Positions 24,465 to 35,530 of a DNA stretch of 64,000 nt are shown here, piece by piece (positions within the stretch are counted from its first letter, which is position 1; the number at the start of each line of letters is the position of its first letter). The translations under genes and the position numbers were made by a program. This DNA is from Anoxybacter fermentans (GTDB taxonomy: Bacteria > Bacillota > Halanaerobiia > DY22613). Under the pieces are notes generated by a model. It was given only the letters and a program-made list of their open reading frames with translations. It was not told the origin of the DNA and searched no databases. The DNA lies in assembly GCF_003991135.1 (NCBI RefSeq), contig NZ_CP016379.1, positions 1,364,001-1,428,000 on the forward strand, in the 5' to 3' direction.

Positions 24465-24685
24465 GATTAAACTGCAAAAAGCTAATTTTGAGCGACATAG
24501 AAATTTTTCGTTAAACCATCTTAGTGAGATTTCAGTCGAAATAAGGCCTCATCACAGGATGTGATGAGCTAATCAAGGGCCAGGAGGGACCGTTGATTAG
24601 TGTGCCTTATTTCGACTGAAATCGAACTTTAGATGGTTCGAAAAATTTCTTTTGAAGCGAAAAATTAGCTTTTTGCAGTAAAATC
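24465..24685 (+). repeat. Foldback MITE-like element R8 (221 bp) between carA and carB
   Basis: Ends GATTAAACTGC and GCAGTAAAATC, with perfect 7-bp direct repeats AATAAAT at 24458-24464 and 24686-24692. Full length with both hairpins. The element contributes the last codons and the stop of carA. Confidence 0.95.
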
Positions 24686-25735
24686 AATAAATGCTTTGAA
24701 CAAATAGTTAGAATCATATGGCCCCGGTGCAGCTTCAGGGTGGTATTGAACAGTCTGTATATTGTAATCCGGGTAACTAAGTCCTTCAATGGTATTATCG
24801 TTCAAATTGATATGGGTAATTTTCGCTGACCTGGGTAAGGTTTTAGCATCTACAACATAACCGTGATTCTGTGAAGTAATATAGACCTTTTGGGTACGGA
24901 GATCTTTAATCGGATGATTTACTCCCCGATGACCATATTTCAGCTTATAAGTCTTAGCACCAAAGGCCAGGGCTGTCAATTGATGCCCCAGACATATTCC
25001 AAATATCGGAACTCTCCCTATCAATGATTTAATATTTTCAACATAGGGTAATTTTGCCGGATCTCCGGGGCCATTGCTAAGAACTAACCCATCCGGTTTC
25101 ATGGCAAGAACAACTTCAGGATCAGTCCATGCCGGGAAAATGAAAATTTTGCAATTAAGAGCTTTTAAATTACGAATGATATTGGATTTCACACCAAAAT
25201 CCAGGACAGCAATCCTTTTTCCCTCTCCTTTAATAACGTGAGGTTTCTTAGTTGTAACCTGCGCCACAGGATTTTCATCCATCTGAAAAGCACGAATTTT
25301 TATCAGATATTTTTCAATATTAGAAGATACCCATTGGCCATTAACGATAACACCAAACATGGTTCCCTTTTCCCGCAATTTTTTAACCAATGCTCTGGTA
25401 TCAATTTGCTCAATCCCTATCACCTGATTTTTAACCAGATATTGCTGTAAACTTGATTTAGCTTGCCAATTACTGTAATGATTTGTTATTTCTCTAGCGA
25501 TTATACCTTTGACCTGAATTTTATTAGATTCCTGACTACTATCATTAACTCCATAATTTCCAATCAACGGATAAGTAAAGGTAATAATCTGACCATAATA
25601 GGAAGGATCTGTCAATATCTCTTGATAACCTGTCATTCCTGTATTAAAAACTACTTCACCGATTGTCTCTCCTTTTATACCAATTCCCTTACCATGAAAT
25701 ACTGTTCCATCTTCTAAAATCAAACTGGCTTTCAT
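24665..25735 (-). CDS. carA: Carbamoyl-phosphate synthase small subunit (C-terminus altered by element R8)
   Basis: 356 residues, the glutaminase subunit that releases ammonia for CarB. The N-terminal CPSase domain is followed by a class I amidotransferase domain with the nucleophile in GICLGHQLT (about residue 240) and the His-Glu pair in QYHPEAAPGP. The ATG at 25735 shares one base with the pyrF stop (TGATG). The last residues, DFTAKS and the TAA, are encoded by R8. Joining the flanks at the target duplication predicts an original end of FIENL-stop, so the change is small and the enzyme is probably functional. Confidence 0.95.
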   Translation of the reverse strand: MKASLILEDGTVFHGKGIGIKGETIGEVVFNTGMTGYQEILTDPSYYGQIITFTYPLIGNYGVNDSSQESNKIQVKGIIAREITNHYSNWQAKSSLQQYLVKNQVIGIEQIDTRALVKKLREKGTMFGVIVNGQWVSSNIEKYLIKIRAFQMDENPVAQVTTKKPHVIKGEGKRIAVLDFGVKSNIIRNLKALNCKIFIFPAWTDPEVVLAMKPDGLVLSNGPGDPAKLPYVENIKSLIGRVPIFGICLGHQLTALAFGAKTYKLKYGHRGVNHPIKDLRTQKVYITSQNHGYVVDAKTLPRSAKITHINLNDNTIEGLSYPDYNIQTVQYHPEAAPGPYDSNYLFKAFIDFTAKS

Positions 25736-26658
25736 CAAGTTCTGCCTCCTCGTATGGTATTGATCTTTTGTTTCATCTTTAGCACAGCTCTTCTGGCTGC
25801 CGATTTATAATCTTCACCATCTTTTTTTCTAGCAAAGATTATCCCCCGGGAAGAATTGACAATACCACCCAATCCATCAGGATTAAAAAAGTGCTCTAAT
25901 TCTGCCGCAACCGCACCTTGAGCTCCATAACCTGGAATCAGGAAGAATGTACGTGGAAGCATCTTTCGCAGTCTGGCTGCAGCTTCGGGGTAAGTGGCTC
26001 CTACTACCATGCCCAGGTTGGAATATCCACTCTCACCGCACCAGTTTGTCCCAAGTTCCTGTAATTGCAGAGCCAGCCGCTCATAGACCTTCTCACCGCT
26101 AGCAAGAGTCAAATCCTGCAAATCCCCTGAAGAAGGATTGGAGGTTTTTAACAACACCCATACTCCTTTATCATACTTTTGCGCTACTTCAATAAATGGT
26201 TCAAGCCCATCTTTTCCTAGATACGGATTAACCGTCATGCTATCCAGATCATAGATAAACTCTTCTCTTCCCCATAGATTCACCTTTCCCAGATAGCCAT
26301 CTGCATAAGCTTTAGCTGTAGAAGAAATATCATTACGTTTGGCATCGAGAATGATTTCAAACCCCATTTCCCGGGAAATTTTACATGATTCTATCAATGC
26401 TTTCAGACCCGCAGGACCATATTGTTCATAAAAACTTATCTGAAACTTCACTACGGGCGCATAAGGTTCTACTGCTTCCAGAATGCCATAATTAAAATTG
26501 ATAAGAACCTGGGCAAGACCCTCCAGGGTCTCACCCATCTTTTCTTTTATTGGCTTTTTCACCTCTTCAGGAATCCGTTCAAACCGGGGATCTAACCCAA
26601 CACAGACACAGCTATTCTTTTCTTCAATCTTTGCAATTAACCGATCAATTGCCTGCAT
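25735..26658 (-). CDS. pyrF: Orotidine-5'-phosphate decarboxylase, type 2
   Basis: 307 residues. It decarboxylates OMP to UMP. The catalytic Lys-Asp motif is DAKRNDI (about residue 105), the N-terminus has CVCVGLDPR, and FLIPGYGAQG near 240 closes the phosphate site. The length is typical of the longer type-2 form. The start is the ATG at 26658 with GGAGTGGTTTCA upstream; this overlaps the end of pyrC by 14 bp. A start eight codons upstream is possible but has no better ribosome site. Confidence 0.94.
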   Translation of the reverse strand: MQAIDRLIAKIEEKNSCVCVGLDPRFERIPEEVKKPIKEKMGETLEGLAQVLINFNYGILEAVEPYAPVVKFQISFYEQYGPAGLKALIESCKISREMGFEIILDAKRNDISSTAKAYADGYLGKVNLWGREEFIYDLDSMTVNPYLGKDGLEPFIEVAQKYDKGVWVLLKTSNPSSGDLQDLTLASGEKVYERLALQLQELGTNWCGESGYSNLGMVVGATYPEAAARLRKMLPRTFFLIPGYGAQGAVAAELEHFFNPDGLGGIVNSSRGIIFARKKDGEDYKSAARRAVLKMKQKINTIRGGRT

Positions 26659-28871: not shown

Positions 28872-28924
28872 TTAATTACCTCCTTAATATAGAATATTTG
28901 GAATACCATAACTACCCTGGCCAT

Positions 28925-29062
28925 AAAAAAATCCCTTCCGGTCCGAAAACCGAAAGGGATTAATTACCTACTATCATTAGGATACTCCTATAGATAGGGC
29001 CAATGATAGATCAGGCTTAACACTTCCCTTTTCGGCCTCACTGGACCGATTTAAAGGTTCTG
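28925..29062 (-). promoter_or_regulatory. PyrR-dependent attenuator between pyrR and pyrB
   Basis: On the minus strand GGTCCAGTGAGGCCGAAAAG (about 29028-29047) matches the PyrR-binding loop (GUCCAGAGAGGCU type). About 70 nt later comes the terminator stem ATCCCTTTCGG / CCGGAAGGGAT (28931-28960) followed by seven Ts. Known mechanism: PyrR with UMP binds the loop and favours the terminator, shutting off the downstream pyr genes. Confidence 0.9.
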
Positions 29063-29079: not shown

Positions 29080-29670
<591 letters not shown>

Positions 29671-29671
29671 T

Positions 29672-29790
29672 TAAAAAACCTTCTTACTGTAGACCAGTAA
29701 GAAGGTTCTAATCTATAGAGATAAGCTACTACTTATCTTCTATTATGTTTCTTCACCTCTTACTAGCCTCACAGGACTAATTTAAAGGGT
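29672..29790 (-). promoter_or_regulatory. PyrR-dependent attenuator upstream of pyrR
   Basis: On the minus strand AGTCCTGTGAGGCTAG (29763-29778) is a PyrR-binding loop. It is followed by the terminator AACCTTCTTACTG / CAGTAAGAAGGTT (29677-29707) with a T run. It sits between the promoter at 29822-29850 and the pyrR start. Confidence 0.9.
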
Positions 29791-29821
29791 GAATCTTATT
29801 TTTTATTTTTCATTTTATTTA

Positions 29822-29850
29822 ACTTTATCAAAAAAACATGCTTCTGTCAA
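29822..29850 (-). promoter_or_regulatory. Sigma-A-type promoter of the pyr operon
   Basis: Minus-strand TTGACA (29850-29845), a 17-bp spacer, then TAAAGT (29827-29822). The -35 box overlaps the stop region of rluD. Predicted transcription starts near 29815, just before the first attenuator. Confidence 0.75.
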
Positions 29851-30776
29851 GGGAATATAGTATTATTTTTTCTCAATTCAACAAGAATTTTTTCCATATC
29901 TTCAGGGATAGGGGCAGTAAAAGTTTTCTTCTCTCCGGTCCGCGGATGAGTAATGGTCAGCTGATAAGCATGGAGCATCTGTCTTTTCACCGGCAAACTC
30001 TCTTTGTAACCATATTTATCATCACCCACCACCGGATATCCTATATACCTGAAATGAACCCTGATCTGATGAGTCCTACCTGTCTCTAAATTGACCTTCA
30101 CTAAGGTATAATCGCGGAAACGCTGTTTAACCTCAAATCGTGTAAGGGCAGGTTTACTGTTCTCCTTTACCACCGCCATCTTTTTTCGATCCTTAGGGTC
30201 ACGACCGATCGGTGCATCTATTTTACCTTTGTCATATGGTAAAAACCCTTTGACCAAAGCCAGGTATATTTTTTCAATTTCCCGTCTTTTAAATTGTTCT
30301 ACCAATATCCGATGGGCCATATCCGTTTTGGCAACAACCAGAACTCCCGATGTATCTTTATCCAAACGGTGAACAATTCCCGGCCTTATTATGCCATTAA
30401 TCCCTGATAGATTCTTACAATGGTATAGGAGAGCATTGACTAAAGTTCCGCTCTCATTCCCGGGTGCCGGATGTACTACCATATCCCAGGGTTTATTAAT
30501 AACAACTATATCATCATCTTCATAAATGATATCTAATGGAATTGCTTCCGGTTTAACCTCTAACTCAGTTGCTTCCGGAACCTCAAAAACTATTTCATCT
30601 CCGGCTTTAACTTTATAACTGGCTTTTTCTACCCTACCATTTACTTTTACCCTACCTTCATCAATTAATTGTTTGATATAGGAACGGCTAAAATCATCAT
30701 TTACCTCAGCCAGATATTTATCAAGACGCATATTTTCATCACTACTGGCTATATCAAACTCACGAATTTCGAGCAT
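29847..30776 (-). CDS. RluD-type 23S rRNA pseudouridine synthase
   Basis: 309 residues. It isomerises uridines in 23S rRNA (the RluA/RluD family). An S4 RNA-binding domain (MRLDKYLAEVNDDFSRSYIKQLIDEGRVKVNG) occupies about residues 16-60, and the catalytic motif HRLDKDTSGVLVVAK lies near 135. The start is the ATG at 30776, with GGGGAGATGGAAG upstream. The open frame continues into element R9, which should not be counted as coding. Before R9 inserted, this start would have overlapped the end of lspA. Confidence 0.9.
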   Translation of the reverse strand: MLEIREFDIASSDENMRLDKYLAEVNDDFSRSYIKQLIDEGRVKVNGRVEKASYKVKAGDEIVFEVPEATELEVKPEAIPLDIIYEDDDIVVINKPWDMVVHPAPGNESGTLVNALLYHCKNLSGINGIIRPGIVHRLDKDTSGVLVVAKTDMAHRILVEQFKRREIEKIYLALVKGFLPYDKGKIDAPIGRDPKDRKKMAVVKENSKPALTRFEVKQRFRDYTLVKVNLETGRTHQIRVHFRYIGYPVVGDDKYGYKESLPVKRQMLHAYQLTITHPRTGEKKTFTAPIPEDMEKILVELRKNNTIFP

Positions 30777-30808
30777 CTTCCATCTCCCCTGTTTTATTTT
30801 CATTAAAT

Positions 30809-31029
30809 GGCTATATTGCAAAAAGCTAATTTTGAGCGATATAGAAAATTTTCGATAAACCATCTTAGCGAGATTGAAGTCGAAATAAGGCCTCATATGA
30901 AGATGTGATGAGCTAATCAAGGGCCAGGAAGGCCCTTTGATTAGGAAGTCTTATTTCGATTGAAATCGAACTTCAAATGATTCGAAAAATTTCTCCTTAA
31001 GAGAAAAATTAGCTTTTTGCAGTATAATC
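30809..31029 (+). repeat. Foldback MITE-like element R9 (221 bp) between lspA and rluD
   Basis: Ends GGCTATATTGC and GCAGTATAATC, with perfect 7-bp direct repeats ATTAAAT at 30802-30808 and 31030-31036. Full length. It supplies the last residues and the stop of lspA. Confidence 0.95.
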
Positions 31030-31446
31030 ATTAAATAAAATCCATGCAAACAAGGCCATCCCTATTACAATGGCTGAATCAGCAATATTAAAGATAGGCC
31101 AGACCTGAAAATCAAAAAAGTCAATCACATACCCCAATCTTAATCGATCCACCAAATTGCCAATTGTTCCACCTAAAGCCAGGCCCAGAGCCAGTCTTGA
31201 AATCCTGTCTTTAGGTAATTGCTTATAAAAATAGATTATAAAAGCAAGTACTACAATAGCGACCAGGATAAATAGTTCCCGCCGGCCTTGCAAGATACCA
31301 AAAGCTGCTCCATAGTTATGTACATAAGTCAAATAAAAGATCTTGGGTATGATTGGAATCGATTCCAGATAGTGAAAGTTATGACTTACCAGGTATTTAG
31401 TCAATTGATCCACGGCAAAAGTTAAAAGTATAACAATCCAGATCAT
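31009..31446 (-). CDS. lspA: Lipoprotein signal peptidase (C-terminus altered by element R9)
   Basis: 145 residues, a membrane aspartyl protease that removes signal peptides from prolipoproteins. Four membrane segments are visible. The family motifs are NYGAAFG (about 42-48), GGTIGNLVDRLRLGYVIDFFDF (about 96-117, first catalytic Asp) and FNIADSAI (second Asp). The start is the ATG at 31446, with GGGGGAGATTATA upstream. The last residues, DYTAKS plus the stop, come from R9; without it the frame would continue about 14 codons into rluD. Both catalytic motifs are intact. Confidence 0.94.
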   Translation of the reverse strand: MIWIVILLTFAVDQLTKYLVSHNFHYLESIPIIPKIFYLTYVHNYGAAFGILQGRRELFILVAIVVLAFIIYFYKQLPKDRISRLALGLALGGTIGNLVDRLRLGYVIDFFDFQVWPIFNIADSAIVIGMALFAWILFNDYTAKS

Positions 31447-31523
31447 TATAATCTCCCCCTCATCCTTTAGATATAAACCGTATAACATTTATTTTAGCAC
31501 ATATTATACCAATTAGCAACAAA

Positions 31524-33973: not shown

Positions 33974-35530
33974 CTATACTGTTGCCAGTTTAGCCAGGTT
34001 ATGGGCTATACACAGTAAACCCCATTCAATTTTTACTTTCTCAAGGCCACGAAGCAGAAATCTCCTGAATGACCAATTGCCTTTGATCCTTCCAAAGACA
34101 GATTCCGCTTCAATTGCTCTTTGAGAACGGAGTTTCATACCTTTATCGGAACAAAGGTTTTCCTTTACCTTTTGCTTATATTCACGTAATTTAAAATTTA
34201 TTCTTATTACTCGATCACCTTTGGCCCTGGTACAATTTTCTTTTAACTCACACCCATCACAATTTTCGCATTTGTAATATCTAATTTGTTTAGTATATCC
34301 ATTTTCAGTCTTAATTTCTTTTGTCTTACAGTAAATGAGTCTTCTTTGAGCAGGACAAATAAACTCGTCGTTTTCTTTATCATACGGCCAGTTTTCTACT
34401 TTAAATATATCATTTTTAAACTTCTTCTTTTGTTCTTTATGAAAAGTATTATACTTAACATAAATATTAGTATTAGCTTTCTCTAAGTAATCATAATTTT
34501 CCTCACTACCATAACCTGAATCAGCTATCACATTCTCCGGAATCTTACCTGTAATTTCTTTTACTTTTTCTAAATGAGGTATTAAGCATCTTGAATCTGC
34601 CGGCCTTTGATGAATACTATAACCAACTACAAACTGATTCTCTGTACCTATCTGAACATTATATGCGGGCTTCAATTGCCCATTTTTCATGTGGTCTTCT
34701 TTCATTCTCATAAAAGTTGCATCAGTATCTGTTTTAGAATAACTGTTTCGTCCATTTAAAATCTCTTCCTGTTGCTCATATTTTTTCATTCTGGGAAGAT
34801 ATTTGCTCTTAAGTTCTTTAATTGTTTTTTTCAACTTTCTATTTTTGGAGTTCTTTTCTAGACGTTCTTCAAGTTCCTTAATTTTTTCTTCGAGTTTCTT
34901 TGAATCTATTTCTTTTCCTTCACCCATCTCCTCCAGATCATTATCCCCATACAATCTATTCTCTTCTTCGTTGGTTTTCTCAATCTCTTTTAAAAGTTCA
35001 TTAATTTTTGCCCTGAGCCTTGCTTTGTACTTCTTTGTCGCTTTTCCCCAGACAAAGCTATATTTGTTTGCATTAGCTTCTATTTTTGTACCATCTAAAA
35101 AGTAATTCTCTAACTTTACATATCCTTCTTCTATAAGAAGTTCCAATACTGATGTAAATACCTCATCAATAACATCTTTCATGATCTCTGATCTGAATCG
35201 GTTTATCGTCCGAAAATCAGGTTTATTGTTACCACTAAGCCACATAAAATAAATATTTTCCCGAAGTGCCTTGGCAATCCGTCTTGATGAATATATTCTC
35301 TGAGTATAGGCATATACTATAACCTTAAGCATCATTTTCGGATGGTAGCTGCTTCTACCCCCACCTTTATATTTTTCAAGCAGGGGTTCAATATTCATCC
35401 TTTCTATAGCTGAATTTACCACCCTTACTAAATGATTCTCAGGAATAAACACATCAAAACTCAAAGGCAACATTGTCTGATTCATATTATATTCAATAAA
35501 TGTCTTTTTATTATGGTTTTTCCTCTTCAT
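33974..35530 (-). CDS. IS1182-family transposase
   Basis: 518 residues, intact. The N-terminal DUF772-like region (HPKMMLKVIVYAYTQRIYSSRRIAKALREN) is followed by the DDE domain: DGTKIEANANKYSF (first Asp, about residue 145), VIADSGYGSEENYDYL (second Asp, about 348) and AIEAESVFGRIKGNWSFRRF (Glu, near 485). A cysteine cluster (CENCDGCELKENC) lies between the last two. A long coiled coil (about 170-250) separates the first two motifs. No frameshift is seen, so the element may be active. Confidence 0.95.
   Translation of the reverse strand: MKRKNHNKKTFIEYNMNQTMLPLSFDVFIPENHLVRVVNSAIERMNIEPLLEKYKGGGRSSYHPKMMLKVIVYAYTQRIYSSRRIAKALRENIYFMWLSGNNKPDFRTINRFRSEIMKDVIDEVFTSVLELLIEEGYVKLENYFLDGTKIEANANKYSFVWGKATKKYKARLRAKINELLKEIEKTNEEENRLYGDNDLEEMGEGKEIDSKKLEEKIKELEERLEKNSKNRKLKKTIKELKSKYLPRMKKYEQQEEILNGRNSYSKTDTDATFMRMKEDHMKNGQLKPAYNVQIGTENQFVVGYSIHQRPADSRCLIPHLEKVKEITGKIPENVIADSGYGSEENYDYLEKANTNIYVKYNTFHKEQKKKFKNDIFKVENWPYDKENDEFICPAQRRLIYCKTKEIKTENGYTKQIRYYKCENCDGCELKENCTRAKGDRVIRINFKLREYKQKVKENLCSDKGMKLRSQRAIEAESVFGRIKGNWSFRRFLLRGLEKVKIEWGLLCIAHNLAKLATV

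Follow-up and report, generated by a model that had tools for sequence, protein, structure and literature searches.

The lspA gene of Anoxybacter fermentans ends in codons for the tetrapeptide TAKS that are read from the end of a short palindromic repeat, R9, and carA ends in the same four residues at another copy of the repeat. The locus raises the question whether such a repeat seeks out gene ends in this frame, adds a functional tail to proteins, or persists where its insertion does little harm. We addressed this in a window of 64,000 nucleotides (contig NZ_CP016379.1, positions 1,364,001 to 1,428,000) and in further stretches of the genome. R9 is an insertion that truncated LspA (Table 1). 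As the original prediction held, the lspA tail is repeat-encoded and in the same frame as in carA: all of the last 21 bases of lspA (GATTATACTGCAAAAAGCTAA; 21/21) lie within the R9 end, where the minus strand reads GAT TAT ACT GCA AAA AGC TAA, i.e., D-Y-T-A-K-S-stop, and LspA ends in LFN-DYTAKS-stop. The segment 31009-31036 singled out by that prediction comprises this tail and the right target-site duplication. R9 is 87-91% identical to other repeat copies.

Table 1. Features of the lspA-rluD locus and of carA, in window coordinates.
Feature	Position	Strand	Basis or remark
lspA, encoding signal peptidase II (159 aa after truncation by R9)	31009..31488	-	PF01252 E 1.4e-42; TIGR00077 above cut-off
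Repeat-encoded DYTAKS tail and TAA stop of lspA	31009..31029	-	Sequence and translation
R9, 221-bp palindromic MITE-like repeat	30809..31029	.	Inverted ends GGCTATATTGCAAAAAGCTAATTTT / GATTATACTGCAAAAAGCTAATTTT
Target-site duplication ATTAAAT, left copy	30802..30808	.	7/7 match to 31030-31036
Target-site duplication ATTAAAT, right copy	31030..31036	.	Exact; 6-7 bp duplication across the repeat family
rluD, RluA-family pseudouridine synthase, ATG at 30776	29847..30776	-	TIGR00005 above cut-off; N-terminus matches RluD of the relative genome G001
GGGGAG, probable ribosome-binding site of rluD	30784..30789	-	Sequence; preserved between R9 and the rluD ATG
carA, ending DFTAKS-stop; rejoined end ENL-stop	24665..25738	-	TIGR01368; other repeat copy at 24465-24685

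Removal of R9 and one ATTAAAT rejoins the flanks into an empty site, a reconstruction from which lspA would encode 166 residues ending in WILFN-ENKTGEMEDARNS-stop, 13 codons past the part shared with the present protein, with its stop 17 nt inside rluD (ATGCTCGAAATTCGTGA), i.e., a 17-nt overlap with respect to the rluD ATG. Both values are within one of the approximately 14 codons and 16 bp predicted. R9 swapped the final 13 residues for six repeat-encoded ones. In relatives, the LspA C-terminus beyond the last membrane segment is variable in both length and sequence. LspA lost 13 non-conserved residues and gained six, and the effect of R9 on the protein is probably minor. The present lspA stop lies 232 nt from the rluD start, and R9 would, as anticipated, have moved the two genes apart by abolishing an earlier overlap. 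Among about 29 cases in relatives, roughly one third have overlapping lspA and rluD; in the others the two genes lie up to 152 nt apart, with rluD starts that are approximate in this comparison. Since tails and spacing both differ among relatives, neither the LspA tail nor the lspA/rluD overlap is conserved.

The core end of the repeat (CTGCAAAAAGCTAATTTT), scored over the 3.56-Mb genome at up to two mismatches, occurs 1,122 times versus 0 for the reversed control pattern, and so is not a chance match. The family comprises about 560 copies of approximately 221 bp and makes up about 3% of the genome. Its structure was analyzed in evenly spaced stretches of 1.64 Mb that include the window and in a further, held-out 0.8 Mb, together 2.44 Mb or 69% of the genome; these contained 257 and 115 inverted pairs of 25-bp ends, respectively. 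The core-to-core distance has its mode at 207 bp, corresponding to 221 bp for a complete copy; smaller classes lie near 172 and 121 bp. In 131 pairs, the repeat starts from the outside with the seven bases G-A-T-T-W-W-A, and the adjoining duplication spans 6-7 bp, is AT-rich and mostly ends in AT beside the repeat. The end sequence, (AT)GATTWWACTGCAAAAAGCTAATTTT, is the same at both ends, and 120 full copies have a median identity of 92% to the 221-bp consensus. The family thus shows the terminal inverted repeats, target-site duplication, short length without a transposase gene and numerous dispersed copies of a MITE. The repeat was found neither in one relative genome of the same order (G001) nor in the plasmids, phages and viral contigs searched; the literature searched contains no description of it, and no MITEs of Halanaerobiales turned up there either. 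Very probably, the family is a very abundant, genus-restricted MITE-like transposon, a grading that includes the account of its survival proposed below.

The consensus forms, at a predicted -119 kcal/mol, a single long hairpin whose apex carries two stem-loops, each with an AGGAG loop. This loop, which occurs once in the context CACAGGAGGTG, is reminiscent of a CsrA-binding loop. A hairpin of such stability could have been kept in the lspA-rluD interval because it regulates or processes the operon transcript. Paired positions co-vary above shuffled controls (173 versus 88 +/- 6 two-sided compensating changes), yet the shuffles ignore the relatedness of the copies, which leaves the compensating changes suggestive. 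Moreover, copies are not enriched by gene orientation and no Rfam match was found at the R9 site, and we regard a regulatory reason for the retention of R9 as unlikely.

What a gene gains from the repeat depends on the frame in which it enters. In phase 1, a TGA usually arises at the junction from the final T of the target and the GA of the repeat. In phase 0, the repeat reads GAT TAA (D-stop) or GAT TAT/TTT ACT GCA AAA AGC TAA (DY/DF-TAKS-stop), with the TAA after one or six codons. Phase 2 is open, with no stop for at least 12 codons. Because both repeat ends are identical, a gene entering from either side meets stops in two of the three frames. The search for further TAKS-ending proteins at element ends, proposed with the original prediction, showed that CarA and LspA are not an isolated pair: riboflavin kinase/FAD synthetase (RibF, L284) carries its native end plus DITAKS, a sugar epimerase (L273) ends in GYTAKS, and near-variants terminate RecJ (GYTAES, L101) and MscS (DYITKS, L214). 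The same tetrapeptide on CarA, LspA, RibF and the epimerase might be read as a functional C-terminal tag added to proteins, but the carriers are unrelated, the variants TAES, ITKS, TAQS and TTKN occur, and D-stop or G-stop is about as common: seven of 13 TAKS-frame (phase 0) ends have TAKS-type tails and six have D-stop or G-stop. As this share (7/13) fits the approximately 59% of repeat ends that lack an early TAA and can spell TAKS, the tetrapeptide itself is not selected, and we consider a tag extremely improbable. TAKS reads as what phase 0 spells in repeat copies without an earlier TAA.

For the frames themselves, we counted as read-in ends those repeat ends into which an open frame of 90 or more codons runs, and derived expected frames from a position-weight target-site model applied to the final 20 codons of 1,254 genes. 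The model expects 0.35/0.32/0.33 for phases 0/1/2. The first sample (1.64 Mb) yielded 9/11/1 and the held-out 0.8 Mb, with the rule fixed beforehand, 5/3/0 (P = 0.04 alone), where two read-in ends with three mismatches were judged spurious. In total, 14 of 29 read-in ends in 2.44 Mb were in phase 0, 14 in phase 1 and a single one in phase 2. The probability of at most one phase-2 end is 1.2e-4 for all 29 and 3.7e-4 after two poor ends and one duplicate are dropped (26 left); it is 0.003-0.005 for genes with a Pfam hit and 0.028 without insertions into native stop codons, whose count is approximate as some have imperfect duplications. The frame bias is real but modest, with 26-29 ends behind it. 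Target-site preference was examined as its source and is unsupported by the position-weight model, which expects about one third per frame. The comparison of observed with expected frames bears out one half of the proposal that insertion in the TAKS frame is tolerated or preferred: the frame is tolerated and the open frame is depleted, whereas a special preference for the TAKS frame is contradicted by its equally common neighbour. In several phase-1 cases, rejoining shows that zero codons were lost, the repeat having entered the native stop codon after its T to give TGA; phase-0 cases mostly lost 0 to 19 codons.

These numbers also bear on the possibility of active targeting, in which the repeat would seek out gene 3' ends in the TAKS frame much as a site-specific element exploits translation-stop contexts. 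The TAKS frame in 14 of 29 read-in ends and an excess of stop-codon insertions over the target model would agree with such targeting. However, the frame with TGA at the junction is just as frequent, no frame is favored by the AT-rich target pattern, and copies occupy tandem, convergent and divergent gaps (160/23/32, n = 215) in proportion to gap length (75/11/14% of gap bp). The excess behind genes or in convergent gaps that an intrinsic terminator or regulatory repeat should show was not seen among these copies, and a long rejoined frame is interrupted by only seven of 219 copies versus 71% of random positions. As insertions follow intergenic length, gene ends are not a target, and active 3'-end targeting appears highly improbable.

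We therefore favor, with high confidence, a MITE-like insertion into a dispensable lspA end and survival under selection of those copies that lie in stopping frames. Insertion would have been broad, at AT-rich sites, with harmful copies lost afterwards; selection would have spared copies that hit the final codons or the stop codon of a gene in a stopping frame and removed others. At lspA, R9 would have entered dispensable C-terminal codons with its 7-bp AT-rich duplication, and the copy would have stayed as the end was dispensable and the frame supplied a stop. rluD would have kept its start and ribosome-binding site, now 232 nt off behind a large hairpin, and R9 may be without large fitness effect. 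Purifying selection is our proposed cause of the frame bias; an insertion bias outside the target model could produce it as well. It could further be proposed that the repeat ends evolved as host-sparing stop cassettes, in which each end supplies stops in two of three frames, so that landing in gene ends costs less, which helped the family to reach about 560 copies. A 108-bp repeat from a genome of the same class (G047, L240-L253; core end GGTTNNNCTGCAAAAAG), which resembles the R9 family and has a 6-bp duplication in one copy checked by eye, is shorter, lacks in-frame stops at its ends and is much rarer (about 20 ends found). Even so, we consider evolution as stop cassettes improbable. The G047 repeat is also a lead to the transposase family.

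As no autonomous partner was found, transposition of R9 is inferred from its ends and duplications, and R9 would have been mobilized by a transposase acting in trans. No gene of the IS1182, IS1634 or IS240 type that we examined was found between repeat ends. An IS1182-family transposase gene (NF033551) lies in the window at 33974-35530 and is one of about 19 copies; the 12 compared are 97-99% identical, so the element was apparently active recently. Its unit boundaries were located, and no repeat-type end pair surrounds IS1182 in the sample. Remnants of IS1634-family transposase genes (L255-L258) are fragmented or contain stop codons and have no matching ends nearby. Next to the IS240-type remnants (L097/L107, counted once) a repeat lies downstream, in the wrong orientation to be the end of the gene, and other repeat copies run past the junction without an IS240-type gene. 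One long pair of repeat ends in the sample is a copy that holds an inserted, putative IS110-type gene (VGIDVSLKENQLQCLDADG; L191, 16636-18816, genome 1952636-1954816), named from its sequence. The mobilizing enzyme may reside in the unsampled 31% of the genome or may have been lost.

Gene-end remodeling by short mobile repeats is already known, since tails or stops supplied by QMITE1 and 3'-end extensions by RU repeats have been described. QMITE1 of Coxiella burnetii endows several genes with either a stop alone or tails like AQTHRRQLKGAR; QMITE2, which lies mostly in 3' regions, has duplications of 7-11 nt and serves IS1111 as a landing site (PMC5896051). Enterobacterial RU-1/RU-2, likewise small and mobile, are repeats that have become fused to the 3' ends of genes, once adding four residues (PMC2759123). 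Like QMITE1 and QMITE2, the R9 family overlaps the 3' ends of unrelated genes and supplies a stop or short tail, a likeness in behavior only, and the IS110-type open reading frame inside one copy resembles IS1111 in QMITE2; in contrast, the QMITEs have about 50 copies each versus about 560 here, their tails differ, and the available part of that account contains no frame test (PMC5896051). Unlike RU-1/RU-2, whose open reading frames give long fusions, R9-family ends stop two of three frames at once (PMC2759123). RUP of Streptococcus pneumoniae and Correia/NEMIS are short MITEs too, present in many copies between genes; RUP, all six frames of which contain stops, is linked to the resident IS630-Spn1, whereas no partner IS was found for the R9 family (PMC2229807). 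What is new here is the repeat family together with its frame statistics. The lspA tail is an unremarkable side effect of a repeat that is very abundant and has stops in two of three frames, and the approximately 26 gene-end insertions in 69% of the genome make a clean, countable case in which such a repeat remodels protein C-termini yet spares gene function.

Between 1943 and 1982 kb of the genome (L191, L254, L192), at least 12 full repeat copies spaced by about 2 kb alternate with Rhs-type C-terminal cassettes, whose open reading frames begin with MTDGTGKVVWEQDYLPFGEDLHKPG and adjoin open reading frames of 3262 and 2649 aa; the repeat copies may provide homology for cassette exchange. In the window, two PyrR-binding RNA leaders (Rfam RF00515) lie beside pyrimidine genes on the minus strand, at 28923-29061 and 29670-29792.
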